Shown: in pieces, positions 1,648 to 61,166 of the stretch
Layout of the letters: every line of letters starts with the position of its first letter
Position numbering within the stretch: the first letter of the stretch is position 1
Assembly: GCF_019578655.1 (NCBI RefSeq)
Contig: NC_063264.1
Span: forward strand, 25,133,688-25,197,687
DNA length: 64,000 nt
From: Ricinus communis
Lineage: Eukaryota > Streptophyta > Magnoliopsida > Malpighiales > Euphorbiaceae
Direction of reading: 5' to 3'
The notes under the pieces: model-generated
Told to the model about the DNA's origin: nothing
Database searches by the model: none
The model's input: the letters and a program-made list of their open reading frames with translations, nothing else
Translations under genes and position numbers: made by a program

Positions 1648-3844
1648 TTCTTCTCTCTTATATCATAAAGGTCAAAAAGTGTCTTCTTATTTATTTTTCT
1701 TCTTTTAGACTCACCTTCATTAACCATATTAGAAAATTAATCGTGCATATATATGAATTTAAGAAATATGTATACAAAAAAAATGAAAGAAAAAGAACAT
1801 GCAATTATATTTTTGTTTTATATTTTCAACTCAGTTCGTCAATCTTGAAAAAACAGTTTTATTTTGTAAAATATAATTAGAGTAAAAGAAGTTAGTTGAA
1901 CTATCTACTTTATATGTACAATTTTAATCACTAGTTGCATAGTATGGAAAGTTATGCAATTAGTCAATAAAATCTAGATAATTTTCAGTCTTATCCATAC
2001 ATGGACACTAAAAAATAAAAGGTCAAGAATCATAATAAATTATACAAAATGAATACTATTATACTCTCAAAATAAACACATCACTAGAACAAAATCTAAT
2101 TTCTTACAACAAGCCGTGAAACTTTTTGTTTAAAAGAACTTCTCTCACCATATTCACTACAACCTGAATCTCTATATTTATCTTTCATTTAAATCCACTA
2201 CTATTTTCTCTCTTTTTCCTCCTATCTATTCCCACCACCTTGTGGCTATCACCATTGCCTTAGATCAATAAGCTATGGTTATGAAACCGAATCTTTGATA
2301 CCTTATTCAATATTACCCATCAGCAAAACACAATACTATAAACAAGATCAAAGTTCTTATTTGTTTGATTAGAAAAATAAGAGAAATATTATTGGTAAGG
2401 GAAAGGATGTCAATTTTAGAGAATTTAAAAATTAAAATTTTAGTTTAGAATTTAAAAATTGGAGAGTTCTTCTTAATTAACTAAAAAAACTAATATATAT
2501 ATATAACAAAATTAAATAATACTATTAAAATATATTGTTTATAAATAATTTCTTAATTTGTTAAAATTATGTACATGTCATGCTCTCTTTTATTTGAAGA
2601 GATGGAGCTAATTGAGCCAGAAGTCACAAGTTTTATGTAAATTGGCCAAAAAAAAAGTAAAAAAGGCTAATTTGGCATGATGTGAGTTAGCAGGAAAATT
2701 GAACCTTAATTCTTTCTTTTTTTATTTATACTGTAATTCATAAATAATTTTAGAAAAAATACAAATATTTCTTAATAGTTAGACCAATAGTCATATTAAA
2801 GCTTAATATTTTTCATTTTGTCCCAATTTTGATCCTACACTCATAAAAACAACACTCTTAGAGACTAAAATAAAACTAAATAGTTGTCTTATTTGAAAGA
2901 AATTATATTTAAAATCAGGTTTTCTATATCATTATTTGACATGAAGAATAATCCAATAGAAAACTAACATGTAATCCAACCTTAAGTTTTTCTAGTACTC
3001 TAACTTTTCTTGTTTAGGTTAACTTGTGCCCTTTTAGTGCTGAGCTGGATAAAAACTTATTATGTTCTTATTTCTCTTTTTTTTTTTATATAACCAAAAA
3101 TTAAACAAGGAAGTAAACTAGAAAATAGAGAAGGAATTAAATAGATAATTTGGGGAATATCGATTGAAATTTAGCTCCAAAGCACTTTCCCTTTCCCACT
3201 ACAATATTCAGAAAGTTCGCCAAGCGGAGTACAAGAGCAACATAGAGGCCTGTAGATTTTGGGTCTGATGTTGATGAAGTGAAGAAACCGTCTCCCTTCT
3301 TTATTTTCATCTTTATCCAAAATTAATTTATCACCCTTAAGTTTCAAATGTAAAACATAACAATTGGCATCACATTCATTTTTATCATCATCGTTTACAA
3401 CTAACTACAAATGAAGTTATTGTAAATCTAATTACAAAAGACTAAACAAGTATTCTTACTATAAAATTAGAGAATGTAGACTAGAGCTTCAAGAAAGACT
3501 ATATAGACAAAACATAATCCTAGTTGAAGCTTATTCGATCATTTTATAAGATAAGTGAAAATTCAATTTTTTAGTCTTTTTATTAGATTGCAAAAGAATT
3601 ATTTAATAAAGAAATGGTGTAAAAATTTTAAAATAACATGATGAGCTTATAAATAAGAGGCATAAGAAAATCTTCAACAAGCTCAAAAAAGAAAACAAAA
3701 GACTGATAATTGAAACATAAAATTTAGGAAGACTGAGAAAGGCAATTTTGATATTGATGTTGCTAGTTTGTAAATAGAATTGTTGAAATTCGGGTCAGGT
3801 TGCCATGAGAGATTGAGCTAAACTCATTTGTATTTATAATTATA
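1648..3844. other. AT-rich intergenic DNA, no gene recognised
   Basis: About 2.2 kb between two inverted-repeat elements. I see no splice-consistent coding region, RNA gene or LTR. A less AT-rich patch at about 3180-3300 could be an old gene or retroelement remnant but has no motif I recognise. Confidence 0.4.
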
Positions 3845-16369: not shown

Positions 16370-17482
16370 TAGTATTCATCAACATATGTTTCAAGTTGTT
16401 TTGTGTTTCTGTACAGCTTCCACAAGTCCTTATACAAGCAAATTTGAAAGACAAGTCAATGAAAATTCAATAATTTCTAAAGATAAAGAAATCGAATAAG
16501 AGCTCACCTTTTGTCTTTCACTCATGAACACCCAATGGTATGAGTTGTACATTTGCAAATCTTGTTTCAATGACTGAATGAACCAACCTCAATTTAAGTT
16601 AGTTTTCACCTTCACCAAGGCAAATACAAATGGAAACATGAAGTCATTTGGGTCAATCCCAGTTGTTGTAAGTACTTGGCTACCATATATCCCTCTAAGG
16701 AAACAACCATTCAAGCACACTAAAGGCCTACAACCACATAAGAAACTCTTTTCCAACTATCCAAGATAGATGTAAATCCCTTCAAAATTTCTCTTTGGTT
16801 CTTTAAACTCAACATTAGTGTTAGGGTTTGTTTTCAATAACTCTAACTTGTAATCATATAACTTAGCAAACTATAAGTCTTCATCCTTATTGATTTGCTT
16901 CAAAGAATAATCTTTGGCCCTCCAAACCTTCATTCTTTCAATTATCAGCTTCATCTCCTTTTTAACTCCTCTAATAAACCCTTGCAAAATCCATGTTGGG
17001 TCAATCCTAAATTCATCCAATATTTTTGTGCAAGATACTTATAAGTGACATGGAAGTCTGCGTAAACCTTGCCACAACTGTGTTTTAAGTTCAAAGACTT
17101 CAACTGTTATCTATTGTCATCATTACCATGAGGTATGTACTTGCTTGCATAAATCCAAAAGTCACATTTTTATAGCAACCCTAACCCTCATCTTGCCATT
17201 TTTTATACCCTATTGTTTGCAAGCTTCTTTAGACTCTTTGTTATGCAAAAGTAGCCCAACTTTAAATCTAGGATTTTTTATGTTCCTTTCTACATTGAAC
17301 CTATTCAATTTCAGCTTTTTCTTAGAAGATGTCTCCTCTTCTACATCAGTCTCACTAGCATTAAACTCCTCATCACAATTCGGTTCATAGTCAGATGAAC
17401 CATCATTCAACTGAAATCTCAATGTAGCATCAACCCTACTTGTTTTCACTTCTTTTAACCTGCTGCTAAGTTGATTTCTGTT
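16370..17482 (-). pseudogene. MULE transposase pseudogene
   Basis: Reading leftward: an acidic linker followed by NPRFKVGLLLHNKESKEA (MuDR-type DNA-binding region, about 17250-17320); LYDYKLELLKTNP; CRPLVCLNGCFLRGIYGSQ with TTGIDPNDFMFPFVFALV; and YHWVFMSERQK followed, across an apparent intron, by GLVEAVQ. These are the ordered landmarks of plant Mutator-like transposases. In intact relatives the CLDGC Asp and the S/T-D-(K/R)-Q Asp are metal-binding; here they read Asn and Glu, so catalysis would be lost even without the several stops and frameshifts. No terminal inverted repeats were found and the 3' part is missing at the junction with the Copia relic. Its frame is opposite to the MULE fragment at 12.4 kb, so the two are not one split element. 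Confidence 0.85.
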
Positions 17483-30255: not shown

Positions 30256-30679
30256 TGTTGATATTTAGGGATTTGTGTCTCTCCCACATTGTTAAGTTAT
30301 TAATTTTTTAGGAGTATTTCTCCCACATTGCTAAGTTAACAATCTTGAGGTACCTTCCAAGCCTATATAATAGAGGCCTCACCTTGTTATTCAATCATCC
30401 AAAAAATAAGAGAAAAATATTAGAGAGTTAAGCAATTATTTTTCTTCTATTATAAAGAGAGAATTTTAATATTTTCTCCTTTATAAATAGAGAGTTTGTA
30501 ACTCCTATCATTTTCTTATAGTAAAATTCGTTTATCCTTGCCCTTGGTTTTTACCCTAATTTGTTTAGGGGTTTTCCATGTAAATCTGTGTGTTCTATTG
30601 TGTATTTTGTCTTACTTTATCTTTATTTTCTCAAATAATTAGCTGTGATTTTGCTCTATCAGGTTCATATTTTTCTACA
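30256..30679 (+). repeat. 5' LTR with internal duplicated promoter motif
   Basis: Starts TGTTGATATT and ends TTCTACA. A tcccacattg(t/c)taagtta motif occurs twice, at 30282-30299 and 30321-30338, 39 bp apart. A TATA-like ctatataatag follows at 30362-30372. This looks like a U3 promoter with a repeated upstream element. Confidence 0.95.
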
Positions 30680-30681
30680 AT

Positions 30682-30695
30682 TGGTATCAGAGCCT
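30682..30695 (+). other. Primer-binding site (initiator tRNA-Met)
   Basis: TGGTATCAGAGCCT, two bases after the 5' LTR. Confidence 0.95.
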
Positions 30696-34950: not shown

Positions 34951-35374
34951 TATTGATATTTAGGGATTTGTGTCTCTCCCATATTGTTAAGTTATTAATT
35001 TTTGAGGAGTATTTCTCTCACATTGCTAAGTTAATAATCTTGAGGTACCTTACAAGCCTATATAATAGAGACCTCAATTTGTTATTCAATCATCCAAAAA
35101 ATAAGAGAAAAATATTAGAGAGTTAAGCAATTATTTTTCTCCTATTATAAAGAAAGAATTTTAATATTTTTTCCTTTATAAATAGAGAGTTTGTAACTCC
35201 TATCATTTTCTTATAGTAAAATTCTTCTATCCTTGCCCGTGGTTTTTACCCTAATTTGTTTAGGGGTTTTCCACGTAAATCTGTGTGTTCTATTGTGTAT
35301 TTTGTCTTACTTTATCTTTATTTTCTTAAATTATTAGCTGTAATTTTGCTCTATTAGGTTCATATTTTTCTACA
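34951..35374 (+). repeat. 3' LTR of the plus-strand Copia element
   Basis: Same 424-bp length as the 5' LTR. The first dinucleotide is TA where the 5' copy has TG. Confidence 0.95.
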
Positions 35375-35640
35375 GTTTATTCTTTAATTTTTAAATAAGT
35401 TTAATAGATTATATATTTTTAATAATTTTTCTCTTAAAACCTTTAGAAAATAGGATTGAAAATATCCCACCCACCTAAAGAAAAATCTTAGATTCTTATG
35501 AAAATTAACACATAACTTGTGTGCAGAAATTTTGTTTTTATTGCACTAAAGCAACCAACAAATTTATAATAACAATTTATCTCGTATTTAGAAAGAAACT
35601 TGTGTGCAGAAACTCTAGCTGCCTTTCTATTCTATTATTG

Positions 35641-43218: not shown

Positions 43219-43616
43219 TGTGATAGCTTGCCTTGGAGAAGCGGTTTGACGAGGGCGGAAAGTGAACGCCGGGGCAAAGATAAGATGCCTGGACAAGGAG
43301 CAGCTTCTGGTAAGCTTCTAGGATGACAACACTCTAAGGTACGGGGGTATATAAATAAATAGAATTACACATCGAAATGGGGTAGGAATGGTTGATAATA
43401 TATATGTAAAGAATTGGAACAAATCATATGAGGTGCATTTTGGTTGTTTGGCTATGGAGTTGTAGGAATTCCAAAGTTAAACGTGCTTGGTTCACTGAAA
43501 TTTCAGGATGAGGGATCTCCTGGGAAGTTCTCGGACCCATCAAATGAACAAAACCGTGAGGCTAGTGGGGGCCAAAGCGAACAATATCTCATGTGATCTG
43601 GTTCCGGGTCGTTACA
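43219..43616 (+). repeat. Cassandra LTR 1
   Basis: 398 bp. The 5S-like segment is at about 43462-43535: gaattccaaagttaaacg, then tgcttgg, then aggatgagggatctcctggg, matching the RNA polymerase III internal control region of 5S genes. Confidence 0.88.
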
Positions 43617-43687
43617 AATAGTATTAGAGTAGAACCCCTCTAATAGATGTGTGGTTCGAGGATGAACAAGGCGAAAGCTGGTGGGCA

Positions 43688-44090
43688 TGTGACAGCCTGG
43701 CCTGGAGAAGCAGTCCGACGAGGGCAGAAAGTGAACGCCGGGGCAAAGATAAGATGCCTGGACAAGGAGCAGCTTTTGGCAAGCTTCTGACAGGCTTCTA
43801 GGATGGCAACACTCTAAGGTACGGGGGTACATGAATGAATCGAATTACATATCGAAATGGTGTGGGAATGGTTAATAACATATATATAAAGAGTTGGAAC
43901 TAATCACATGATGGGCCTTTAGGTTATTTGGCTATGGAGTTGTAGGAACTCCAAAGTTAAACGTTCAGAGAAATTTCAGGATAAGGGACCTCTTGGGAAG
44001 TTCTCGGCCCCGTCAAAGGGACAAAACCGTGAGGCCAGTGGGAGCCAAAGCAGACAGTATCTCATATGATCTGCTTCCGGGTTTATTACA
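43688..44090 (+). repeat. Cassandra LTR 2
   Basis: 403 bp. The 5S-like segment at about 43942-44008 lacks roughly 7 bases (gcttggt) present in LTRs 1, 3 and 4 inside the pol III control region. Confidence 0.88.
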
Positions 44091-44161
44091 AATGGTATTA
44101 GAGCATAACCCCTCTAGTAGATGTGTGGTTCGAGGATGAACCAGGCGGAAGCTGGTGTGCA

Positions 44162-44549
44162 TGTGATAGACTGGCCTGAAGAAGTGGTCCGACGAGGGTA
44201 GAAAGTGAATGCCGGAGCAAAGATAAGATGCCTGGACAAGGAGCGGCTTCTGGCAGGCTTCTAGGATGGCAGCACTCTAAGGTACGGGAGTACATGAATG
44301 AATCGAATTACATATCGAAATAGTTGATAACATATATGTAAAGAGTTGGAACGAATCACATGAGGAGTTTTTTGCTTGTTTGGCTATAGAGTTGTAAGAA
44401 CTCCAAAGTAAAACGTGCTTGGTCCAGAGAAATTTCAGGATGGGGGATCTCCTAGGAAGTTCTCGGACCCGCCAAAGGGACAAAACCGTGAGGCCAGTGG
44501 GGCACCAAAACAGTCAATATCTCATGTGATCTGGTTCCGGATTGTTATA
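44162..44549 (+). repeat. Cassandra LTR 3
   Basis: 388 bp. The 5S-like segment at about 44393-44466 is the closest of the four to a plant 5S gene (aggatgggggatctcctaggaag). Confidence 0.88.
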
Positions 44550-44620
44550 AATGATATTGGAGCAGGACCTCTCTAGAAGATTTGTGGTTCGAGGATGAAC
44601 CAGACAGAAGCTGGTGGGCA

Positions 44621-45006
44621 TGTGACAACCTGGCCTGGAGAAGCGGTCCAACAAGGACGGGAAGTGAACGTCAGGGCAAAGATAAGATACCTGGATAATG
44701 AGCGACTTCTGGCAGGCTTCTAGGATGACATCACTTTAAGGTACAAGAGTACATGAATGAATCGAATTACACATCGAAATGGGGTGGAAATAGCTAATAA
44801 CTGTTGGAACTAATCACATAAGGTGCCTTTTACTTGTTTGGCTATGGAGTTGTAGGAACTCCAAAGTTAAACGTGCTTGGTTCAGAGAAATTCCAATATG
44901 GGAGACCTTCTGGGAAGCTCTCGAACCCGCTAAAAGGACAAAACTGTAAGGCCAGTAGGGGCCAAAGCGGACAATACCTCATGTGATCTGGTTTCGAGTC
45001 GTTACA
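44621..45006 (+). repeat. Cassandra LTR 4
   Basis: 386 bp. The 5S-like segment is at about 44852-44925. The right terminus GTTACA abuts the outer LTR sequence. Confidence 0.88.
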
Positions 45007-46339: not shown

Positions 46340-47740
46340 TTTGATGAACTACTAAAACTCCTTGTTCCTAAAGCTCATGTGTGAAGTTTCTTTTAGCAAA
46401 ATGTGCTTAGTTCTATCTCCTTTAATATATCCTCCTTTAAGTTGTGCAAAACAAGCAATACTATCTTCATATAACACTGTTGGACTTCCTTTATTAAATG
46501 GGAGATCACATTTTCTTTTATATGTTGGATCATAGATCTCAACCATATGCATTCTCTACTATAAATTGTCAATATCTCAGCATGATTAGATGATGTGACA
46601 GTTAGAGTGTTCTTAGTAGAATGCTAAGATATAGCAGTGTATATAAACAAGTAATATGTTTGTGGTCAAGCTTTATATGGATAAGACTAATATCCAAAAT
46701 CTATATATCCAATTCATACTAACTTTAAGTCTTATGAATAAAATAAAATCATATCTGTTGTACCACATAAATAACAAAATATTTATTTCACACCGTTCTA
46801 ATATCTTCAAATTGATAGAAACTATATCTTGCTAATAAACTGATAGAAAATGCGATATCAGGTCTTGTATAATTAGCAAAATACATTAATACTATAATAA
46901 CACTAAAATATAACACTTCTGGATCAAGTATTTCTTTACCACTTTCTCGAGGATGAAAATTATCCTTTTTCATATTCAAGTGTCTAATAACTATGGGAAA
47001 ACTCATTAGTTGAAATTTATCCACATTAAAATATTTTAATATCTTTTCAATATAAGTTAATTGATGAATAAAAGTCCCTACAAATAAATATTTAATGTGG
47101 AGGCCGACATTAAATTTTATTTGTTCCAAATCTTTCATTTCAAATCTATTTTTTCAAAATTAAGTTATTGTATCTATCAACTCTTTAGGACTCCGAATGA
47201 TATTTAAATCATCAACATAAATCGCAATTATAACAAAACTAAAATTTCTTTTTTTAATAAAAACACATGAACAAATTGAATTGTTAGTATATCATTTCTT
47301 TAAAGATATTCACTACGGCGGTTATACAACATTTATCTAGATTGTTTTAAGAATTTTTTTTTGCATTATAAAGTGACAATCATTAAAATATTGCAGTATA
47401 TGCATTTTCCATTAATGGCTCAAGATATTTGATTATAGATGGAGATTCATATCCATTATATATTCTCAATCTCCTCTAAGGAAGGTCAATGGGGGCATAA
47501 ACAACACATCTAAAAATTTTCAAATAGAAATTTTTTGACTCATGGCCAGAAATCAACTATAATGATAAAAAAATTATAATAACTAGTTAGCTTGATGTGT
47601 ACAAGAGTTGGTGCATGTAAAATTGTATGTCCTTTTGGGAGGTTTACCACTACATTTATTTCAATAGTATACATATATGTGTAATATAAGTCAAAGGAGA
47701 AAACAAGCAGCTTCTCCAATATACATTTTTTGCCCATTAC
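46340..47740 (-). pseudogene. Copia integrase-reverse transcriptase-RNase H fragment
   Basis: Reading leftward on the minus strand: integrase tail with FRCVVYAPIDLP and GYESPSIIKYLEPL (about 47420-47500); reverse transcriptase catalytic box AIYVDDLNII (about 47205-47235); EMKDLEQIKFNVGLHIKYL from about 47140; a Y-F-ANYTRPDIAFSISLLARYS block near 46840-46870; and RNase H with KGSPTVLYEDSIACFAQLKG and DRTKHI near 46390-46480. Stops and frameshifts are frequent. Integrase C-terminus passes directly into the middle of reverse transcriptase, so DNA is missing between. The N-terminal gag and protease are absent. Confidence 0.82.
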
Positions 47741-48470
47741 GAAGGTATATTATAAAGATATTCATACTTTCCACATCTATAGTCTTAATATGATATATAT
47801 TTTGTCATTTTATTCTTTTTAATCTATTAAGTTGATTATGTTCTAAGATTTCAGGTCCACAATTGCTACGGACTGATATATACACTTAATTATAAATATT
47901 TGCTAGGCTCATGTACCAAGTTGTATCTTTTAAAAGTCTAAACGCGTAATTATCAAATTTTAATAAATTTATATTTTTTTAATTATCTCAGTCTTTTTAT
48001 ATAAGTGATCGGTTCCACAGACTTATATACTAATAATTTTTTAATTTCATATATTAAATTATAACTTTTAAAAATTATAAATATTTAATTATTAAATCTC
48101 AACAAATTGATAAATATTTTTGAAATTATATATTTACATATATATGACACCCGAAGGCTCCACTAGTGATTAACATGCCGGTCTAGACGCACCAACAGAC
48201 CAAAAGCCATTAAGTGCTGAGGATTTATGTGTGTGTCTTCATATGCAAGCATTGAAGTTTAGCAACCACAATTTTATTTTGCTGCAGGAATGAAGTTGAC
48301 CTCTCGTAAAGATGAAAAGGCAAGCAAGGTTCACATCTCATCATTTGAAACAACTTCCTTTTATCTATATTTTTAATTCAATTTCTTTGACATATAATAT
48401 TATACATTTTTTTTTTGTTGAAATATAATATTATACATTTAAATGAGAAATAGATAATGTAATTTATTTT
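47741..48470. other. Intergenic DNA with duplicated block A, copy 2
   Basis: No gene. Positions 48238-48340 are the second copy of the block at 29775-29870. Confidence 0.45.
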
Positions 48471-49780: not shown

Positions 49781-52700
49781 TGTACTGTTCCTCGACATAT
49801 TTATTCTATTATATATTGACATGTGATAATGTTATTGCTATATTTTTTTTTTATTTTAATGATATGTGATAATTTTGTTGATGGATCACAAAAGTTAGAC
49901 TTTATTTATATATAGCATAATCTTATTTCACTATAATAGAAATTACAGAATTTTAAAATATTAAAATTCTATTAGTTTAATTTTATTTTATTTCCTAAAG
50001 CATAGTAAGAGTTTAAAAATATTAAAAAAATTATCAGGGTCCTATTTATTATTATTTTTAAAATATGCCAAGGATCCTAAATTATCAAAAAATTCTAATT
50101 AAATCACTATTATACATATGCAATCTAGCCTATGTAGAAACATATATTCTTTTTTTTTTTTTTTAAAAAAAAAAAAAAGCAATTCTAATTAATCAGATTG
50201 AAAAAATATTTATAAACAAAAAAATAACAATAACTGCTAAGATTACAGTGTTATTTACACAACCACACCCAGCGTTTTTAATTTTAGAGAACATTTCAAA
50301 AATATCCTAAAATCAATAAAAATATTATTTTTACTGTATAATTTTTTAAAAAAATATTGTATTTTTAATTTCTTTTTGTAAAAATATGTGAGGTTGTTTT
50401 TTTATTTTTTTTAATTGTTTTACCAAAAAACAACTAAAGAGAAACTAAAAAACAATTAACACCCTATTTTAATAAAAATTTAAAAACCATAAGTTTGATA
50501 TTTTAACACAATAAAAAAAATTACACAGTATTTTTGATAAAAAATGGGTATTTTTATTATTTTTTCTTAATTCCATTAAATTATTTTGAATATAAAAATT
50601 AAGAAGGAAAATTATAATTTATATTTTTTTACTGAATTTTGTAATTCTAGAAAAATGAAATATGAATTTGGAGCAGAGGTGGAATTACCTCAAGAACAAG
50701 AAAAGTGGAAGCAAATAAATGATTTTTTTATTAAAAAAAAAACCTGAAATTTGTGGTGACATGAAACCGAATGGAAATGAAGATGGTGAAGAAGTACGAA
50801 GTAAATTTGGCCTTAAATGGTGAAGAAGAAGCCAAAAAGGAGGGACCATAACTGTGTGGCTGCAACTCCCAACTGCATCAACACGTCGTTAGGTTAGCCA
50901 TTGGGGGACCAGACCTATTTGATAAGATAATGGGATAAGTTCTTTTTTCTTTCCTTTTTATTGAAGCCATGTCGTAAATTATATAATAAAAGATAATTAA
51001 ATATTTTTTATTATAAAATAATAAAATAAAATACTAAGAGCCTTTTTACTTATAAAAAATGACTGATTTTTTAGAAGATTTTTTAAATAAAAATAAAAAA
51101 CAGTTTTTTATATTTTTAAAATTATAACTAAAACTTGAAAAAACTTTTAAAAATAAATTTAATATATTTTTTTATTTTTTCTTTATATAAAAACTTATTT
51201 TCAAATGAAATATAAAATTTTAGCGTAATTTATAGACTTTTGTCTTTGAATAATATTTGGTTTATATTATTATAAAACAACCAGTAATTCTAGTCTGTAT
51301 GCTAGCATTAAAAATTGATGAAAAATGTAACAATCCAAAGGATTAAACTGTTTTGCAATATAAAGATTTATGGGCAGAAATTAAAACTAATATTTAAAAG
51401 TTTAGTTTTAAAAGTATGGTCTCAATATTCAAAATGTGAATGACAATGGTATAGTAAAAATGTATTAAATTAATGATTGAGGACCAAAGTGCAGAATTAT
51501 TGATAAACATTAAAGATTAGAATGTTAATTTAGAAACAGTAAAGGGTAGGATCAAAAAGTTATGTAAATCTTATAGATTTTGTTTTCTCATTGTAATTAT
51601 CCCTTTATTATAAGCTTACTAAAGAATAAAGGAAAATTCTCAAAATGGATTATCAAAACACAAATTCCACATAAGATTCTAGTCAAAATAATAATAATAA
51701 TATTGAGTAACAAATGAATTTCATGACAATTATAATGTGTAATTTATGTGCTATTCAAAATGTCCAAAATGGGTATTCTCAATTGAATATGTGTGATTCA
51801 GTATTTTTCAATGAAAAATTTAAGACTAATAATTTATTTTACAAATTGAGATAGAAATTTCATTAAAATTACCAAATCAGGTTTGATTTTGTTAAAATTA
51901 ATTTTTTTTTATCAAGACTGCATAAAGTAAAAAAAAAAAAAAGAAGGCTAAAACTTTTATTATATATTTGAGATTTTTTTAGAAAATAATTCAAGAATTT
52001 TAATAATTATAATTTTCATCTAAGACACACTTAATTTTATTTTCTAATTATATTTGAACCATAATTAAATAATACATCTTATTTTTCCTTTAGAACCCAA
52101 ATAAGCCATGATCCACAATTTTTTAATAGAATTTATTTAGGAATGAAATTTTGGTGTTTGATGTGTTATACAATAAATGTAAGATTCAAATTAGTTATAC
52201 AATATAATTTGTAAGTGAAATTCAAACAATTTAAATTAGAGTATTCCATCTTCTTTATTTAATTCTAATTCAGTCAATATGAATAATTACAAAAATAGGT
52301 GTACACTTGTTAAGATTTAATAATTAAATATTTAAATTTTTAAAAGTTATAATTTATTGTGTGAAATCAAAAATTATTAACATTTAAGTGTCTGAAATAA
52401 ATTACATATATAAAAAAAGCTAGACAATTATAAAAATAGTATGTCTACTTATTTAAATTTACAATTAAATATTTAAACTTTTAAAAATTACCATTTGGTA
52501 TGTGAATCTAGTAAAAATTTACAATTGAGTGTATATAGCAGACCAATAACAATTGCAGACCTGTAACCTTAAAACACATATTATCAGCTTAATAGATTAA
52601 AAAAGATAAAATGATAAAAAAATCTTTAAAAAATATCTACTTCTAATAGAATAATATATTACCCTCACTACCAACATTACTTTATTTATATATTTTTATT

Positions 52701-53465: not shown

Positions 53466-56400
53466 TCAAACAGCCTGAAGAAGATCCAGAACCGATGTCC
53501 GGTCAGGCATGCTAGGAATTGCTCCCTTCACTTGAACGCAAAGAGAAGCTGCTGCAGCTGTAAAATGTCAACAAGAACCATAAGAATGTCGGTTTCTTAT
53601 TTTGATTTCCTTTTTAATTCTCTTGAGAAATATATGCAAATGCTGCTGCAACTAAAAAAGACAGTCCAAGTATATAACCAGTCTTACCAGCAAATCTCAT
53701 GCATTCCTCTTTTGTGTTGCCCTCCACCAGAGCGACAGCAAAAGCAGCAGTAAAAGTATCTCCAGCACCCGTAGTGTCAAGCACCCTTTCAGCAGATATA
53801 ATAGGCTGTATAATTGGTTTTTTCCCCTCTTCAAATAAGGCCGACCCTTGGGCCCCAAGTTTCACTAGGACTTGCCTAACTCCCTGAATTTAGGATTCAT
53901 ATCCTATAGTGTTAGAACTTAAGAAAGTACATCAATTGGCAACTTGGCATTTTCAAACAGCTTTCCGTCAGACCGATATTTGCCTATAAATACGCATCTA
54001 TAGGCATCTCACTCTGACACATGTAGAACTAAATACAGAAAGTGGTTAAGCTATCAACAACAAAAGCTCTAATAGGGAAAGAGAAAGACAAGGCGTAAAA
54101 GAATTTCTCAATATGGACCAGGGCTAAACACATGTATAGGAATATACAATCCGTATGGAGAACTGCAAAAGTTTCCTGTCTCTTCCCCTAATAAAAGACT
54201 GTATCAGGAGGAGAGAAAAAAGATAAATAAAGGAGCAGAATTGAAATTTCTAATGCCCAGATTGTCTGATTTAAATTGATGCAGACCTACATAAATGCGG
54301 ACCCAAAAAAAAGACTCTAGATGCAACAATTTAAAAGAGAGTTTTACCGCCTATGATCCTGAAAAATACTTCTTCTAGGAGCAAAAACTTGATTCCAACA
54401 AGCAATTTGGTAAGCAATTTTTAAATACCAATGGACCTAACATGTCAATACCAACACTGAATGAATTCAAATTCCAAATTTCCTTTCTTTTCTTATATTG
54501 AGTGGTCAATAACTGCATCAAACAAAAGAACTGTCTAAATTAAATCTTTAAAATAACCAAGCTTTTTAATTAATACACATTAGGCATATGTGGAATAGTT
54601 GATAATCTTACTACTTTAGTTTTTCTTTTTTAATCTTCTTCCAATGTCCCATATATTGCCTATTTGTGCGACTAAGTAAACAATAATGAAAATCCACAAG
54701 GGGAGCTCTGAAGAAGTAGGGATAAATGCCCTGCTGGTACCAAACCACAGCCACTTATATCCATTTGGTACCAAATCTTCAATTTGTTTCTTTTTGGTAC
54801 CTCTCCTATTATTTTTGTTACTTCCACCAGTACCAATGAAAAATCCGGCAATTATTTGCTGATGTGGCTGCCGAATTTATAAAGGACCACAGACCACATA
54901 TGTTGTTGAGTCATTTACTTTATCCAAGTCAGCAAAAAAATTACCTTTACCTTGAGCTAAACAATTGAGACAAATTGTTTTCCTCCTTTAAGCTAACCCA
55001 AGAGTAACCGCTTTACCTCAGAAATCAACGAAAAATATTCTACTTCCACCTCCATTGTCAACACTCTCTGAGCCTCTGAGCTTCTGCTTCATAGTTTCTT
55101 TATAGAACTGTACCTGCACATTGCGAGATTGGGAAGCAATGACACTTGACTGGCGAGTAAGGGAGAAACGCGAAGACTCACCAGTATACTGTAAGTACAA
55201 GCACATGTAATTATTGAAAGAACTGAAGTTCTATCCATGTTAAATTTGTATTTTTGAATGCGTATTACATACTGCATTACTTTGGAAGTTAATAATGCAG
55301 GGAGCTAGGGTTTTCTCATTACTTGGTACTATGAAGAAATCCTTTTTATCAGTTGAATGTTGATGATGTTTATTAATACTGTTTTTCTTAAAATAATTAA
55401 TGTTTGTTTAATTAATTTAGGATAATTGTATTTTGCAGTGCCTAATTCCGAGTACTTTAGTTTGTATTGGCATGATTATAGAGTTGATAGTAGAGGTCAC
55501 CCTAAGCTATAGGATGTAGGAGCTGTTGATTTTTGCAGTTTAGATAAGATGTCTAGGTTAGAAATAGATTCAATGGCTAGAGAGCTAGGAATAAAACCTG
55601 AAATAAAAATTATTATGTGGAAGCATCCTACGAAGAGTATGAATGATGGATTGCGAAGCCTTGAAACTGATAGTGATGGTTTTGAAATGGCAATGTCTGT
55701 GGAATATTGTAAATTGATGCATATATTTAGTAGGGATAAGTTTGAAGGAATAGAAGAAGCTGGGGAAGAAGTTGAGGAACTACATGCTAGTGAAGAAGCT
55801 GTGAAAAACATATCTGAGATGGAAGGAGAGGAACCATAAAATGAACAAAATATGGATGATGACAGCTGTGAGAGTAGTGAGAGTGGTGATGCAGATTCAC
55901 AAGACAGTGAGTTTGTGGACTCTCATTATGACCTGAGAGATGAAGATGTTGATGCTATGTTTGATAAGGAGCTTGAAAGGGACAGACCATCTAGATCTAG
56001 AACTTCTAAGCAACCTGCTGAGGAGTTGTCTGAAGAATCAGATGCCACAGTATATACTCCATCAGAGGAGCTGTTATCATGATCCTTAACTGAAGACAGT
56101 GATGCAAATTCAAGGAAGCACAAGTGGCCTGTGTTTAATGAGGAGACTGACATGGCGAATCCCAGCTTCAAGATTGAAATGCTATTCAGTTTCTTCAAAC
56201 AATTCAAGGATGCAGTTAAGAGCTCATCAATCAAAACTAGAAACCAGGTAATATTTGGTCCAAATACAAGGCAGAAATGCAAGGCTAAGTGCAAGAAAAG
56301 ATGCCAGTTCTTCATTTGGGCTTACCTGATGAACATAGACAAAGAAACAGTGCAGATCAAGTCAGCTTCTCTCACTCACAACTGTTCAAGAGAGGCATAC

Positions 56401-59400
56401 AATAGGCATGTTAATGCCAAATGGATAGTTCAGCATTATGTTGAAAGGTTCAGAGCTGATCCCAGTTGAGTAATTCAATGGATCATACAAGCTGTGAAAG
56501 CATACTGTGGTGTTGATGTGTCCAGACTTAAAGCACGGAGAGCAAGAAATGCTGCCTTGAATTTTATCAATGATGATGAGACAGAACAGCTTTCTAGACT
56601 TCATGATTACAAGCTAGAACTGTTCAGAAGTAATTTATGGAGCACTATAATTTTTTATTTGAATGAAGGAGTTTTTAACAGTATATATGTGTGCTTTGCT
56701 GCATTGAGGGAAGGATTTAAGTATTGTAGGCCTTTGATATCTTTGGATGGGTGTTGGCTTAAAGGAATATTTGAAGGACAGCTTCTCACAACTATTGCTT
56801 TAGATGCAAATGACTGCATCTATCTAGTGGCATGGTGTGTTATGCAGAAAGAAAACAAGCAATATTGGAAATGGTTTTTGGAGTTGCTTGTTGAAGATTT
56901 GGAGATAACAAACAGTTATAATTGGGTGTTCATGACTGACAGGCAGGCAGAAGGTAAATACTCTTCACAATTTCCTTTTCTATTCCTTCATATATTTTCA
57001 TGACTGATTGGCAGAATGGTATTAATTGTGTATTGTGATTTTAGAATAAGACTGTATTGTGATTTTAGAATAAGGCCTTATTCTTGCCATTGAAGGGGAA
57101 CAAAGAGTGAATCGAGCCAAATACTAAAAACTAGGGTTCAAAATTGGAAATTTTCCTAATTTAGAGTTATTTATTTGGGGTGAGATTTTGTTAATTGCTG
57201 ACTAGAATAAAATAAATGAGTTAGCAGCACATGCGGCAATTGTGATGTGGTCCTTTGTAAATCCGGCAGCCAAATCAGCAAATAACTGCTAGATTCCTCA
57301 TTGATACTGGCGGAAGTAATAGAAATAATAGGAAGGGTACCAAAAAGAAACAAATTGAAGGTTTGGTACCAAATGGATATAAGTGACGAGGTTTGGCACT
57401 AGCGGGGCATTTACTACCATTCCAAAATCACAACACAATTAATATCATTATGTCAATCAGTCATGAAAATATATGAAGGAATAGAAAAGGAAATTGTACG
57501 AGTAAGGTATATAATAGTAACAGGAATATGCCCAAAATTTAATGCTAGTCTCTAAGTCTCAAGCATCAGAAGAATGTCTAGAGGGAGCGTCCTCCCCAGT
57601 ATGTCTTTTGTTTTAGCGGGATACACCTTAATCCCATTCTTTCGTACTATGAATCCTAGGAATTTCCCCTCCCTACTGAAATGGAAAGGGGGGAATCGCC
57701 GTCCATCTGCTTTTGCTTTGGAATAGAAAGGCGATTTGTGTCGGTCTTGACATAAACTCTGAAAAATAATAGAAAGTGTTGTCTAGTGGTCCCACCTGCT
57801 ATGTTGAAATGGCTTGATCTAATAAATACTTCCTCTTATTGAGTTACCTTTCCCTTTGAGCTAACTGAGCTAAGCGGGAGTTGGGAACCCAAAAGGGTGG
57901 AGATAAAGAGTATTTACCTTCTGTCTGTCAGTCATGAACACCCAATAATAACTGTTTGTTATTTCCAAATCTTCAGCCAGCAATTCCAAAAACCATTTCA
58001 AGTATTGCTTGATTTCTTTCTGCACAACACACTAATGCCACTGGATAGATGCAATCATTTGCATTTAAAGCAACAGCTATGAGAAGCTGTCCTCCAAATA
58101 CTCATTTAAGCCAACACCCATCCAAAGATATCAAAGGCCTACAACACTTAAATCCATTCCTCATTGTAGCAAAGCACACATACATACTGTTAAAAACTAC
58201 TTCATTGAAATAAAAAATTATAGTGCTTCCTGGATTACTTCTCAACAGTTCTAACTTGTAATCATGAAGTCTAAAAAGTTGTTCTATCTCATCACTATTT
58301 ATAAATTTCAAGGCAGCATTTCTTGCTTTCCATGCTTTAAGTTTGGACATATCAACACCACAGTCTTCTTTCACAGCTTGTATGATCCCTTGAACTGCCC
58401 AACTGGGATCAGCTCTGAACCTTTCAGCATAATGTTGAGCTATCCATTTGGCATTAACATGCCTATTGTATGCCTCTCTTGAATAGTTGTGAGTGAAAGA
58501 AGCTGACTTGATCTGCACTGTTTCTTTGTCTGTGTTCATCAAGTAAGCCTAAATGAAGAACTGACATTTTTTTTTGCACTTAGCCTTGCATTTCTGCCTT
58601 GTATTTGGACCAAATATTACCTGGTTTGTAGTTTTGATTAATGAGCTCTTAACTGCATCACTGAATTGTTTGAAGGAAGTGAATAGCATTCCAATTTTGA
58701 AGCTGGGATTCGCCATGTCAATTTCCTCATTAAACACAAGCCACTTGTGCTTCCTTGAATCTGCATCATTGTCTTCAGTTGAGAATCATGACAACAGCTC
58801 ATCTGATGGAGCGTATACTGTGGCATATGATTCTTCAAACAACTCCTCAGCAGGTTGCCTAGCAGTTCTAGATCCAGATGGTATGTCCCTCTCAAGCTCC
58901 TTATCAACAAACTTATCAAACATAGCATCATCATCATCTTCATCCCTCAGGTCATAATCACAGTTCACAAACTCATTGTCCTGTGAATCTGCATCACTAT
59001 TCTCACTACCCTCACAGCTATCATCATCCATATCTTGTTCATTTTATGGTTCTTCTCCTTCCATCTCAGACATATTTTTCACAGCCTATTCATTAGCATG
59101 TGGTTCCTCAACTTCTTCCCCAACTTCTTCTATTCCTTCAAACTTATCCCTACTAAATATATGCATCAATTTACAATCCTCCACAGACATTGCCATTTCT
59201 AAAGCATCACTATCAGTTTCAAGGCTTCTCATTCCATCATTCATACTCTTCGTAAGATGCTTCCACATAATAATTTTTGTTTCAGGTTTCATTCTTAGCT
59301 CTTTAGTCATTGAATCTCTTTCTAACCTAGACATCTTATCTAAACTACAAAAATCAACAGCTCCCATCCTATAGCTTAAGATGACCTCTACCATCAACTC

Positions 59401-61166
59401 CATAATCATGTTAATACAAACTAAAATACTTGGAATTAGGCACTGCATAATACATTTACACTAAATTAATTAAACAGACATTAATTACTTTAAGAAAAGC
59501 AGTATCAATAAACATCATCAACATTCAACCGATAAAAAGGATTTCTTCACAGTACCAATTAATGAGAAAAACCCTAGCCCCTTGCATTATTAACTTCCAA
59601 AGTAATGCAGCATACAATACACATTCAAAGATGCAAATTGAACATGGATAGAACTTCAGTCTTTCAATAACCACAGAATAACTACAGGTGCTTGTACTTA
59701 CAGTATACTGGTGGGTCTTCGCGTTTCTCCCTTACTCGCCAGTCAAGTGTCATTGCTCCCCAATCTCACAATGTGCAGGTACAGTTCTATAAAGAAACTA
59801 TGAAGCATAAGCTCAAAGACCAGAGGCTCAGAGAGTGTTGACAATGGAAGTGGAAGTAGAACGTTTTTTGTTGATTTCTGAGGTAAAGCGGTTACTCTTG
59901 GGTTGGCTTAAAGGAGGAAAACAATTTGTCTCAATTGTTTAGCTTAAGGTAAAGGTGATTTTTTTGCTGACTTGGATAAAGTAAATGACTCAGCAACAGA
60001 TGTGGCAAGTGGTCTGTGGTCCTTTATAAATCCGGTAGCCACATTAGCAAATAACTGCCAGATTCCTCATTGATACTGGCAGAAGTAACAAAAATAATAG
60101 GAGGGGTACCAAAAAGAAATAAATTGAAGGTTTGGTACCAAATGGATATAAGTGGCTAAGATTTGGTACCAGCGGGGCACTTATCCCGGTCTTGAATCGT
60201 AGCTAATTTATACTTGGAAAAGAGTTCTCTCAACTTCTAGTCAAATGATTATCCCAGTCCAAGTAGTCATCCCAACAACCAAAAAAGGTTATTCTCTTCT
60301 AAAACTAGTTATGCTTGTAACCAAACAATGAAAAAATTTAATCTGAAACTGCTTATACACATCCCAGTAGCAAGTAAAAACTAGTCATTGGTAACTCAAC
60401 AGTCCATGACAGAGAGTAATCAACTTCATTAATGAAGCAAAACTTACAATAGGAGTTTTCTATAAAGATTAAACTTTCTTAGAAACACATGAACAAGCAC
60501 ACCTCACTCAACTGCCTTGCGCACTATGAAACTGAATGGCCTTAAATGTGCTTCACAAAGAAGATCAAACTGAAAACCTATTACTGGGACCTTTCCTCCA
60601 AACAAGATAGCTAAAATGATTATAATTTAATTTTGAAGATAGAGAAAACATGCAGTTGGAAAAGGAAACTCCTAAGGCAGGTTAAAAATATTCTCTGTCA
60701 TGTCATATTATGACTTCACTAGTTGGTCTAATAACTCATGTACAACATATGTTTATGATGGAATGAATTACATACTTAAGCTTAGTAGGATTCTTAAAAT
60801 TTTATGAATGTGAACAAGCACAGCTCTCACAACACTATGAAATTGACTAGACAACAATTAAATTTTCACTAGAAGTAAAACATGCCATTTTAAATTTTCA
60901 AAAATAAAAAGGCAAAAAATCATGATAGGTGCAACACAAAATGACTAATGATAAAGATTGCTTGGATAATGCATACTAACCATTTCATGACACTTTTTGA
61001 CAGCTTGACCAATCTGTTCAACATTTTCTGTGGGCATGCCAGTGATACGAGCAAGTTCAGTTTCATTTGGGCTAAAGATGTCGACAAATTTCAACAGTTC
61101 TGAAGGTATTGGTGCATCCATTCCCCCAGCATCAAAAATAACAGGCACACCTGCTTGCTTTGCAGC
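53466..61166 (-). CDS. RBSK: Ribokinase (pfkB family), last three exons, partial
   Basis: Minus-strand exons in transcript order: 61166-60981 (62 codons, AAKQAGVPVIFDAGGMD...), 53883-53688 and 53557-53466, with matching phases and a stop at 53468-53466. The protein closely follows Arabidopsis ribokinase At1g17160 as I recall it: SPNETELARITGMPTE (the Asn-x-x-Glu metal/phosphate motif), VKLGAQGSALF, and DTTGAGDTFTAAFAVALVEG, whose GAGD Asp (53758-53760) is the catalytic base. The C-terminus is CVQVKGAIPSMPDRTSVLDL plus five residues. The enzyme phosphorylates D-ribose to ribose-5-phosphate with ATP; the plant enzyme is plastidic by a transit peptide that would be outside this window. The exons for the N-terminal two thirds were not found and are probably beyond 64000. 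The intron 53884-60980 is 7.1 kb because it holds the inverted MULE structure. Confidence 0.93.
54719..54990 (+). repeat. Terminal inverted repeat, copy A left
   Basis: Contains repeated ggtacc sites (54738, 54768, 54798). Pairs with both 57180-57417 and 59925-60187 in inverted orientation. Confidence 0.88.
55439..56955 (+). pseudogene. MULE transposase, copy A, interrupted and 3'-truncated
   Basis: Ordered landmarks: PB1-like region (NSEYFSLYWHDYRVD near 55445, then KIIMWKHPTKSMNDGLRSLE); an acidic Asp/Ser/Glu-rich linker (55850-56090); MuDR-type DNA-binding region NPSFKIEMLFSFFKQFKDAV with a Cys/Lys-rich CKAKCKKRCQF (56155-56320); and the MULE catalytic domain with CRPLISLDGCWLKG and TIALDANDCIYLVAW (56730-56840), ending at WVFMTDRQAEG. 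The first two catalytic Asp positions are kept, but the region with the third acidic residue and the zinc-knuckle tail is missing: after a donor-like gtaaatac the sequence runs into non-coding DNA and the terminal repeat. Stops at 55510-55512, after EEP (55837-55839), after ELLS (56080-56082) and at 56467-56469. Confidence 0.9.
57180..57417 (-). repeat. Terminal inverted repeat, copy A right
   Basis: Reverse complement begins gtaaatgccccgct and follows the left repeat through its ggtacc sites and aaaggaccaca block. It forms part of the loop between the two arms. Confidence 0.88.
57498..57904 (-). pseudogene. Ty3/Gypsy-type reverse transcriptase fragment inserted in copy B
   Basis: About 407 bp interrupt copy B at a point where copy A is continuous (ggaaattgt...agagtatttacc, read on B's plus strand). 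On the minus strand, 57680-57559 encodes FSREGKFLGFIVRKNG followed by IKVYPAKTKDIL. This is the conserved G-K-F-L-G-F/Y-x-V-x-x-x-G-I-x-V-x-P-x-K block near the end of Ty3/Gypsy reverse transcriptases. The rest is not recognised. It is a fragment, with no LTR or full domain. Confidence 0.7.
57910..59447 (-). pseudogene. MULE transposase, copy B, interrupted
   Basis: Same order of landmarks as copy A read on the minus strand: KIIMWKHLTKSMNDGMRSLE, the acidic linker with DLRDEDDDDAMFDKF, NPSFKIGMLFTSFKQFSDAV, CKAKCKKKCQFF, YNRHVNAKWIAQHYAERFRA, CCRPLISLDGCWLK, and a GVHD-stop near the end where A has FMTDRQ. It shares with A the stops after EEP and after ELLS. It has private breaks (for example stops after ANE, QFFI and CWLK) and is open at two positions where A has stops (56467-56469 and 55510-55512). 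It therefore cannot make transposase. Confidence 0.9.
59925..60187 (-). repeat. Terminal inverted repeat, copy B outer end
   Basis: Reverse complement begins gggataagtgccccgctggtacc and follows 54719-54990 closely, continuing into the transposase leader. Confidence 0.88.
60188..60980 (-). other. Ribokinase intron, remainder
   Basis: AT-rich intron sequence between the MULE structure and the exon at 60981. No feature recognised. Confidence 0.6.

Follow-up and report, generated by a model that had tools for sequence, protein, structure and literature searches.

The locus considered here, two facing copies of a Mutator-like element (MULE) in an intron of castor (Ricinus communis), raises the question of whether such a palindrome is a silencing trigger for its own family or the remnant of two transposons that came together. 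To our knowledge, Mu killer of maize is the best-known case in which an inverted copy of a transposon silences that transposon. The first-pass annotation of the 64-kb window, the whole stretch of DNA that was analysed (64,000 nucleotides), likened the castor locus to it. The reading preferred here, to which a probability of about 0.7 is given, is that two castor MULE copies have been joined tail-to-tail in the intron of a ribokinase-type gene and that the locus is now most likely a neutral, decaying relic. For now, it is regarded as an ordinary transposon relic.

Self-comparison of the window identified a single inverted pair of at least 500 bp (low-complexity filter on, E 1e-10), and the inverted layout and coordinates given in the first-pass annotation are confirmed. 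The arms, described there as longer than 2 kb and pairing inward from the outer termini, do so from terminal inverted repeat (TIR) ends at 54719 and 60187, with 54719-56965 aligned to the inverted 60187-57906 at 89.9% identity over 2,289 columns. A second pairing stretch, 56959-57047 against 57504-57419, is 91% identical over 89 columns. Between the arms is a loop (57048-57418) of about 371 bp, a length near the roughly 360 bp claimed. Two features had been overlooked: the loop is mainly the 3' end of the left copy (L), including its TIR, and the right arm is broken by a 401 bp insert at 57505-57905. The structure is that of two MULE copies placed tail-to-tail. Palindromes are troublesome for assemblers, however a false palindrome is hardly credible here: with a difference of about 8.5% of sites, the arms are not one sequence written twice, and the exons flanking the locus are neighbours in the protein.

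The left copy, on the forward strand at 54719-57417, is a 2.7-kb internal-deletion derivative that retains both TIRs. Its 5' part extends to about 57096 and is followed by the 3' part of the family sequence, the break having been read by eye with a few bases common to both sides of the join. The 5' TIR (54719-54935, forward strand) forms the outer left end of the palindrome and begins GGGATAAATGCC. A broken transposase 5' exon with in-frame stops lies at 55513-57003 on the same strand, and the MULE domain PF10551 is matched within its frame 56470-57003 (E 3.8e-8). The 3' end of L, at 57102-57417 on the forward strand, carries the 3' TIR, which is the third TIR of the locus, and makes up most of the loop. 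Among the 20 fetched family copies, 18 have a 3' end that is matched wholly or largely by its bases 57102-57413, the copy L009 for example with 88.8% identity over 312 bp. The flanks of L agree as a target duplication at 5 of 10 bases at best, which is the commonest score among 5,000 random pairs.

The right copy (R), on the reverse strand at 57419-60187, is 3'-truncated inside the transposase intron, and its truncated side adjoins the 3' terminus of L. Its 5' TIR (59964-60187, reverse strand) ends at 60187 and forms the outer right end of the palindrome. The frames of its transposase 5' exon (58102-59460, reverse strand) are broken by stops. The description of the arms as transposase-bearing therefore holds for fragments, with PF10551 present in one left-arm frame, but there are stops in both arms; no transposase match was found in the single right-arm frame scanned. 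R departs from the family sequence at the point equivalent to about 57047 of L, which by eye is within about 20 family bases of the L deletion break. This nearness would be a coincidence had two copies collided. The insert in R is a patchwork. The middle of the query used (57498-57905) is a run of short pieces matching different places in the genome, with pieces 31-96, 96-170, 170-205 and 207-290 matching C2, C4, C7 (two places) and C4/C2/C5, respectively, while query positions 1-30 and 291-408 have no other match. When the 3' half missing from R was sought across the 64-kb window, 6 of the 20 copies supplied their 3' internal halves as queries; these gave TIR-like matches, all of them from L015, and a match of 33 bp at 18.1 kb, but no other counterpart. 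The left flank has one weak 34-bp match to L014.

The castor family was represented by the first 20 places outside the window in the search from L; with the two arms, the tree and the counts have 22 rows. The searches from L and R listed 48 and 45 matches, respectively, which are pieces and include those of the window itself, and the candidates scored were the best 40 of 357 and the best 40 of 369. Five places found only by the R search (C9:26.21, C5:8.64, C4:17.10, C1:9.27 and C8:2.17 Mb) are outside the tree, and incomplete copies were retained in it, including L022, which has no 5' part. The 12 full-ended copies are 5.3-5.9 kb. With the target duplication length fixed at 10, all 10 bases agree in 6 of these 12 and 8-10 agree in 9; L025 scores 5, though by eye 8 of 9 bases agree as a 9-bp duplication. 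The family thus has a target duplication of about 9-10 bp. TIR pairs were found in 17 of the 20 fetched stretches, being 80-93% identical over 143-252 bp. Long TIRs and the PF10551 match in L identify the family as a Mutator-like element, and all DBD_Tnp_Mut matches were below the cut-off. No stop-free frame longer than 392 aa was present on the element strand in the 20 fetched stretches, and the closest pair among the 22 rows is not below 6.6% difference. An annotated castor relative, P0001, is a 625 aa protein with PF10551 that is 63% identical to an L009 frame. Annotated relatives have long proteins and a live related subfamily is therefore possible.

By distance, each arm has the other as its nearest neighbour among the 22 rows, at 8.5% of sites, with their nearest other copies at 8.9-9.4%; the arms are thus almost as far apart as independent copies. 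Discordant transversion sites, counted where at least 4 other copies vary, number 1 of 112 between L and R, the lowest of the 12 pairs examined and followed by 1 of 98. This nearness and low discordance argue for a close common source. Among the matches listed by BLAST, R is the best from L (3,082 bits, against 3,060 for the next), and from R the copy at C2:22.01 Mb scores 3,099, above L at 3,082. L and R group weakly as sisters, with support of 83/79, on a branch of 0.0014. Their own end branches are 0.044 and 0.043, and the tree median is 0.044. The AU test, for which the groups were chosen after inspection of the tree, does not reject the alternative of placing either arm with L025 (p 0.24). 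L and R have in common 2 exclusive derived sites, the median over pairs being 1, and no exclusive indel among the 22 rows.

These relationships bear on the first-pass description of the locus as an inverted-duplicated MULE. A single element duplicated in place and in inverted orientation soon after its insertion, and then aged, would account for the sister grouping, for the lowest discordance of the 12 pairs and for the points at which the two arms leave the family sequence, which are about 20 family bases apart at most. Against this origin, which is unlikely, the 3' TIR of L stands between the arms, the arms share just 2 sites and no indel exclusively, and the outer flanks have no target duplication, agreeing at 5 of 10 bases at best. 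The end of L is the family 3' end seen in 18 of 20 copies, and the locus is therefore unlike a simple inverted duplication, which would leave none between its arms. With so few exclusive changes, such a duplication would also have to date almost to the insertion. For these two reasons simple inverted duplication was lowered from the default explanation to a rival one, although the arms do have a close source in common. A single three-TIR element moving as a unit was also considered and is unsupported, the outer target duplication being absent.

On the preferred reading, L and R would be two copies of one family that had a common, or at least a very close, source. In one possible route, L would have inserted into the R intron, after which the 3' half of R was lost. 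In the other, separate insertions would have been followed by a deletion starting from the 3' end of L, through a break at the transposon end and end joining. We infer the order of events in both. No empty counterpart of the site was seen in an outgroup intron. By chance, about 0.02 opposite-strand pairs within 6 kb are expected with 48 copies, against 1.3 with the 369 first-look candidates; chance juxtaposition is therefore likely only if the family numbers in the hundreds.

The intron that contains the locus belongs to a PfkB/ribokinase-type gene on the reverse strand and spans 53884-60980 (7,097 bp), with a GT donor at 60980 and an AG acceptor at 53885-53884. The earlier intron placement is confirmed on the two flanking exons, which are open, have plausible splice sites and match TIGR02152 at positions 150-211 and 210-277; each match is of a single exon and is hence below the whole-protein cut-off of the model. 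Conservation of the exons suggests that the gene is transcribed. Intronic heterochromatin has effects in plants, and the locus sits between two coding exons in a 7.1-kb intron, so that if methylated or hairpin-forming it might alter how the ribokinase-type transcript is spliced or polyadenylated, or how much of it is made. The open exons and plausible splice sites argue against this effect in cis, which is improbable.

If transcribed, the locus would fold, as part of the host pre-mRNA, into a long hairpin with imperfect pairing. In the predicted fold the arms form 2,129 pairs with each other, at an energy of -3,793 kcal/mol, compared with about -1,500 kcal/mol for ordinary family members, of which two were folded. 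A strong predicted hairpin is what a trans-silencer like Mu killer would have, its host- or TIR-driven transcript being processed by Dicer into small RNAs that silence the MULE family or did so in the past. Consistent with this, R contains 311 of the 2,677 distinct 21-mers of L without a mismatch, and 1,594 of 5,115 arm 21-mers have an exact match somewhere among the 20 fetched stretches. However, one ordinary copy has 343 of the L 21-mers, more than R; no ordinary copy has more than 272 in common with R. The end branches of the 20 copies are 0.035-0.076, with none much shorter than those of the arms (0.043-0.044), which would fit an amplification that ended about when the locus arose. That none of these copies has a frame longer than 392 aa counts against the trans-silencer.

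CHH-type change in L (31 of 476) is marginally the highest, next to L012 (31 of 495), but in R it is unremarkable (28 of 484). As a methylation footprint, the two arms show no clear excess by raw counts over the 16/495 to 31/495 of the other copies, the comparison being with 12 copies of equal or lower other divergence and the arms contributing to the majority used. In the moss Physcomitrella many 21-nt loci lie wholly on the arms of one inverted repeat, according to the available part of PMC2600652. The first-pass annotation proposed host read-through as the supply of hairpin, which is contradicted for Mu killer itself: in the accessible text of PMC3440606, read-through from the flanking gene accompanied a failure of silencing, though its authors allow that minor longer transcripts may add hairpin. 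Taken on both sides, trans-silencing is quite improbable. The sequence gives no sign of silencing; a silencing role is unlikely, and from the absence of signs the locus probably lacks a dedicated one. That a hairpin from the MULE collision supplied small RNAs which helped to shut down the castor family some millions of years ago, as a Mu killer born of collision instead of inverted duplication, is more improbable still. Two joined copies would most likely decay as a neutral intronic relic, with small RNAs at most incidental.

Among known systems, the double Ds and half-double Ds of maize have a transposon nested inverted in another copy, with part of one missing. These are of a different superfamily, and for the castor locus nesting is one of two routes. 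MULEs with multiple TIRs have been described in tomato, rice, maize and Arabidopsis by Ferguson and Jiang 2012, among them a type-6 element in which a solo extra TIR accompanies a broken transposase (PMC3310237, available part). The castor locus likewise has a third TIR inside, but whereas 61 of 61 tomato elements in the available part of that paper have a recognisable outer target duplication, it has none and therefore shows no sign of moving as one unit. In the portion of PMC2600652 available, Physcomitrella has 132,656 inverted repeats, with a median arm identity of 79% and covering 6.2% of the genome, which are enriched for 21-nt loci and not for 22-24 nt loci. The castor locus is an inverted repeat too. 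Mu killer is a partial inverted duplication of mudrA, about 1.3 kb of it inverted, with two TIRA ends, close to host genes and with a proposed hairpin of about 4 kb (PMC3440606, accessible text). The resemblance noted in the first-pass annotation holds for the same-end TIRs outside, the facing transposase 5' parts inside and the position in or beside a gene, but probably not for the centre, where in castor the 3' TIR of L stands between the arms. The castor halves do not meet directly, the 3' end of L with its TIR lying between them at 57102-57417; direct meeting without another element end is a presumed feature of Mu killer, the centre of which is unsequenced in the accessible text of PMC3440606 and may hold a similar end. 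The castor arms are also about 90% alike, one copy having its 3' TIR in the loop and the other an insert; Mu killer silences living MuDR. The castor locus does show that a Mu killer-like layout can come about where two family copies meet. If such palindromes do not trigger silencing, layout alone is no proof of function, and the castor locus is a concrete site at which to test whether they become silencing triggers.

The inverted layout reported by the first-pass annotation is confirmed, and two details had been overlooked. On contig C9 of the 315.5-Mb castor bean genome, 54719-56965 pairs in inverted orientation with 60187-57906 (89.9% identity over 2,289 columns), with a further inverted match between 56959-57047 and the reverse of 57504-57419. 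The hairpin loop measures about 371 bp, close to the earlier figure of about 360 bp. When 54719-60187 is folded, the minus strand reaches -3,792.8 kcal/mol with 2,129 arm-to-arm pairs and the plus strand -3,789.8 kcal/mol with 2,116, whereas L012 and L010, ordinary family members of comparable length, give -1,493.9 and -1,524.2.

The left MULE copy, L (54719-57417, plus strand), is a deletion derivative retaining both ends, because 57102-57413 matches the family 3' end, itself present in whole or in large part in 18 of 20 stretches. By eye, its 5' part extends to about 57096 and is joined to the 3' part at a few shared bases. Next to this deletion break the 5' part contains a local tandem repeat of about 24 bp (57049-57096) with a 16-bp perfect palindrome, gaataaggccttattc, likewise visible by eye. 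The right copy, R (minus strand), runs from 60187 down to 57419, departs from family sequence within the transposase intron and abuts the 3' terminus of L. The sequence at the junction is ggaat-GGTAGTAAATGCC; many ends in the family instead have GGGTTAAATGCC, and assignment of its bases to L or R is ambiguous. The 3' half of R was not found in the window using six family copies as queries. R carries a 401-bp insert (57505-57905), the middle of which is tiled by seven matches from different chromosomes (36-84 bp, 88-98% identical). This insert looks like patchwork filler left by the repair of a break, or a mixture of organelle or retroelement pieces, and its 76-aa frame has no Pfam match.

The family was sampled in 20 fetched stretches, 17 of which have a terminal inverted repeat (TIR) pair of 80-93% identity over 143-252 bp. 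Twelve copies retain both termini and measure 5.3-5.9 kb; in six of them the 10-bp target duplication is perfect, and nine match at 8 or more of the 10 bases, a level reached in 104 of 5,000 draws of random window pairs. Among the copies examined, none looks alive as a silencing target, since no stop-free frame of the element strand exceeds 392 aa and the closest pair diverges by 6.6%. A live related castor subfamily is possible, because the protein search (seven hits, six from castor) includes annotated castor proteins of 625, 498 and 517 aa in related elements. Short, weaker matches to the transposase exon (70-78%) at 16506-16733 are perhaps a more distant MULE remnant. The window also contains a 425-bp direct repeat (30258-30682 and 34953-35377; 95% identical, 4.7 kb apart) resembling LTR retrotransposon ends, tandem-like direct repeats about 470 bp apart at 43219-45006 (80-83% alike), and a 350-bp inverted repeat (47800-48137 and 52273-52619; 77% alike) near a weak, below cut-off RVT_2 match at 46788-47153.

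In a comparison spanning 2.3 kb of the 5' region, divergence between L and R is 8.5%, and the nearest other copies lie at 8.9-9.4%. L and R group together with support of 83/79; the inner branch has a length of 0.0014. Their end branches (0.044 and 0.043; tree median 0.044) would represent roughly 3-6 million years at plant rates of 0.7-1.3e-8 substitutions per site per year. No exclusive indel common to L and R was found; for scale, the clear sisters L026/L028 and L018/L021 share 32 and 6 exclusive derived bases. Grouping L or R with another copy, L025, is not rejected (p 0.242 and 0.244); grouping R with L009 (p 1.7e-5) and L with L022 (p 0.013) is rejected. An origin by inverted duplication, as first proposed, is doubtful, given the 3' TIR of L between the arms and the two exclusive derived bases common to L and R (median over pairs, 1). 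Against the reading favoured here, of two copies fused tail-to-tail, transversion discordance between L and R is 1/112, the lowest among 12 pairs at sites variable in at least four other copies, which indicates one close source. The counts fit both two insertions from that source and duplication almost at insertion; two insertions are favoured because the 3' TIR sits between the arms.

The host intron (53884-60980, minus strand; 7,097 bp) has splice boundaries GT at 60980 and AG at 53885-53884. Both flanking exons match PfkB; on the ribokinase model TIGR02152 they span positions 150-211 and 210-277 and are therefore adjacent in the protein. We infer that this ribokinase-type gene is transcribed, in which case R would be read in the sense orientation and L in the antisense one; were the intron transcribed, the arms would be able to pair. 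Of 2,677 distinct 21-mers of L, 311 are present in R; L shares up to 343 with an ordinary copy, and R at most 272 with any ordinary copy. Small RNAs could reach family copies, since 1,594 of the 5,115 arm 21-mers recur in one or more of the 20 stretches. CHH-type decay was not clearly raised. In Physcomitrella, 21-nt loci are enriched in inverted repeats, according to excerpts of PMC2600652. For the castor locus, the first-pass interpretation has partial support where layout is concerned, is unsupported for a silencing function and is doubtful for the origin.

Host read-through had been proposed as the supply of a hairpin like that of Mu killer, the maize MuDR-silencing locus. This route has little support even in Mu killer, since in the excerpts of PMC3440606 read-through from the flanking gene was seen in plants failing to silence. 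Plants silencing MuDR made short antisense transcripts from a promoter within Mu killer, and the authors allow for minor longer transcripts adding hairpin. The Mu killer-like layout itself holds: the castor locus has two outer TIRs and inverted transposase parts, similar in outline to Mu killer, described there as having two TIRA ends with parts of mudrA in inverted orientation.
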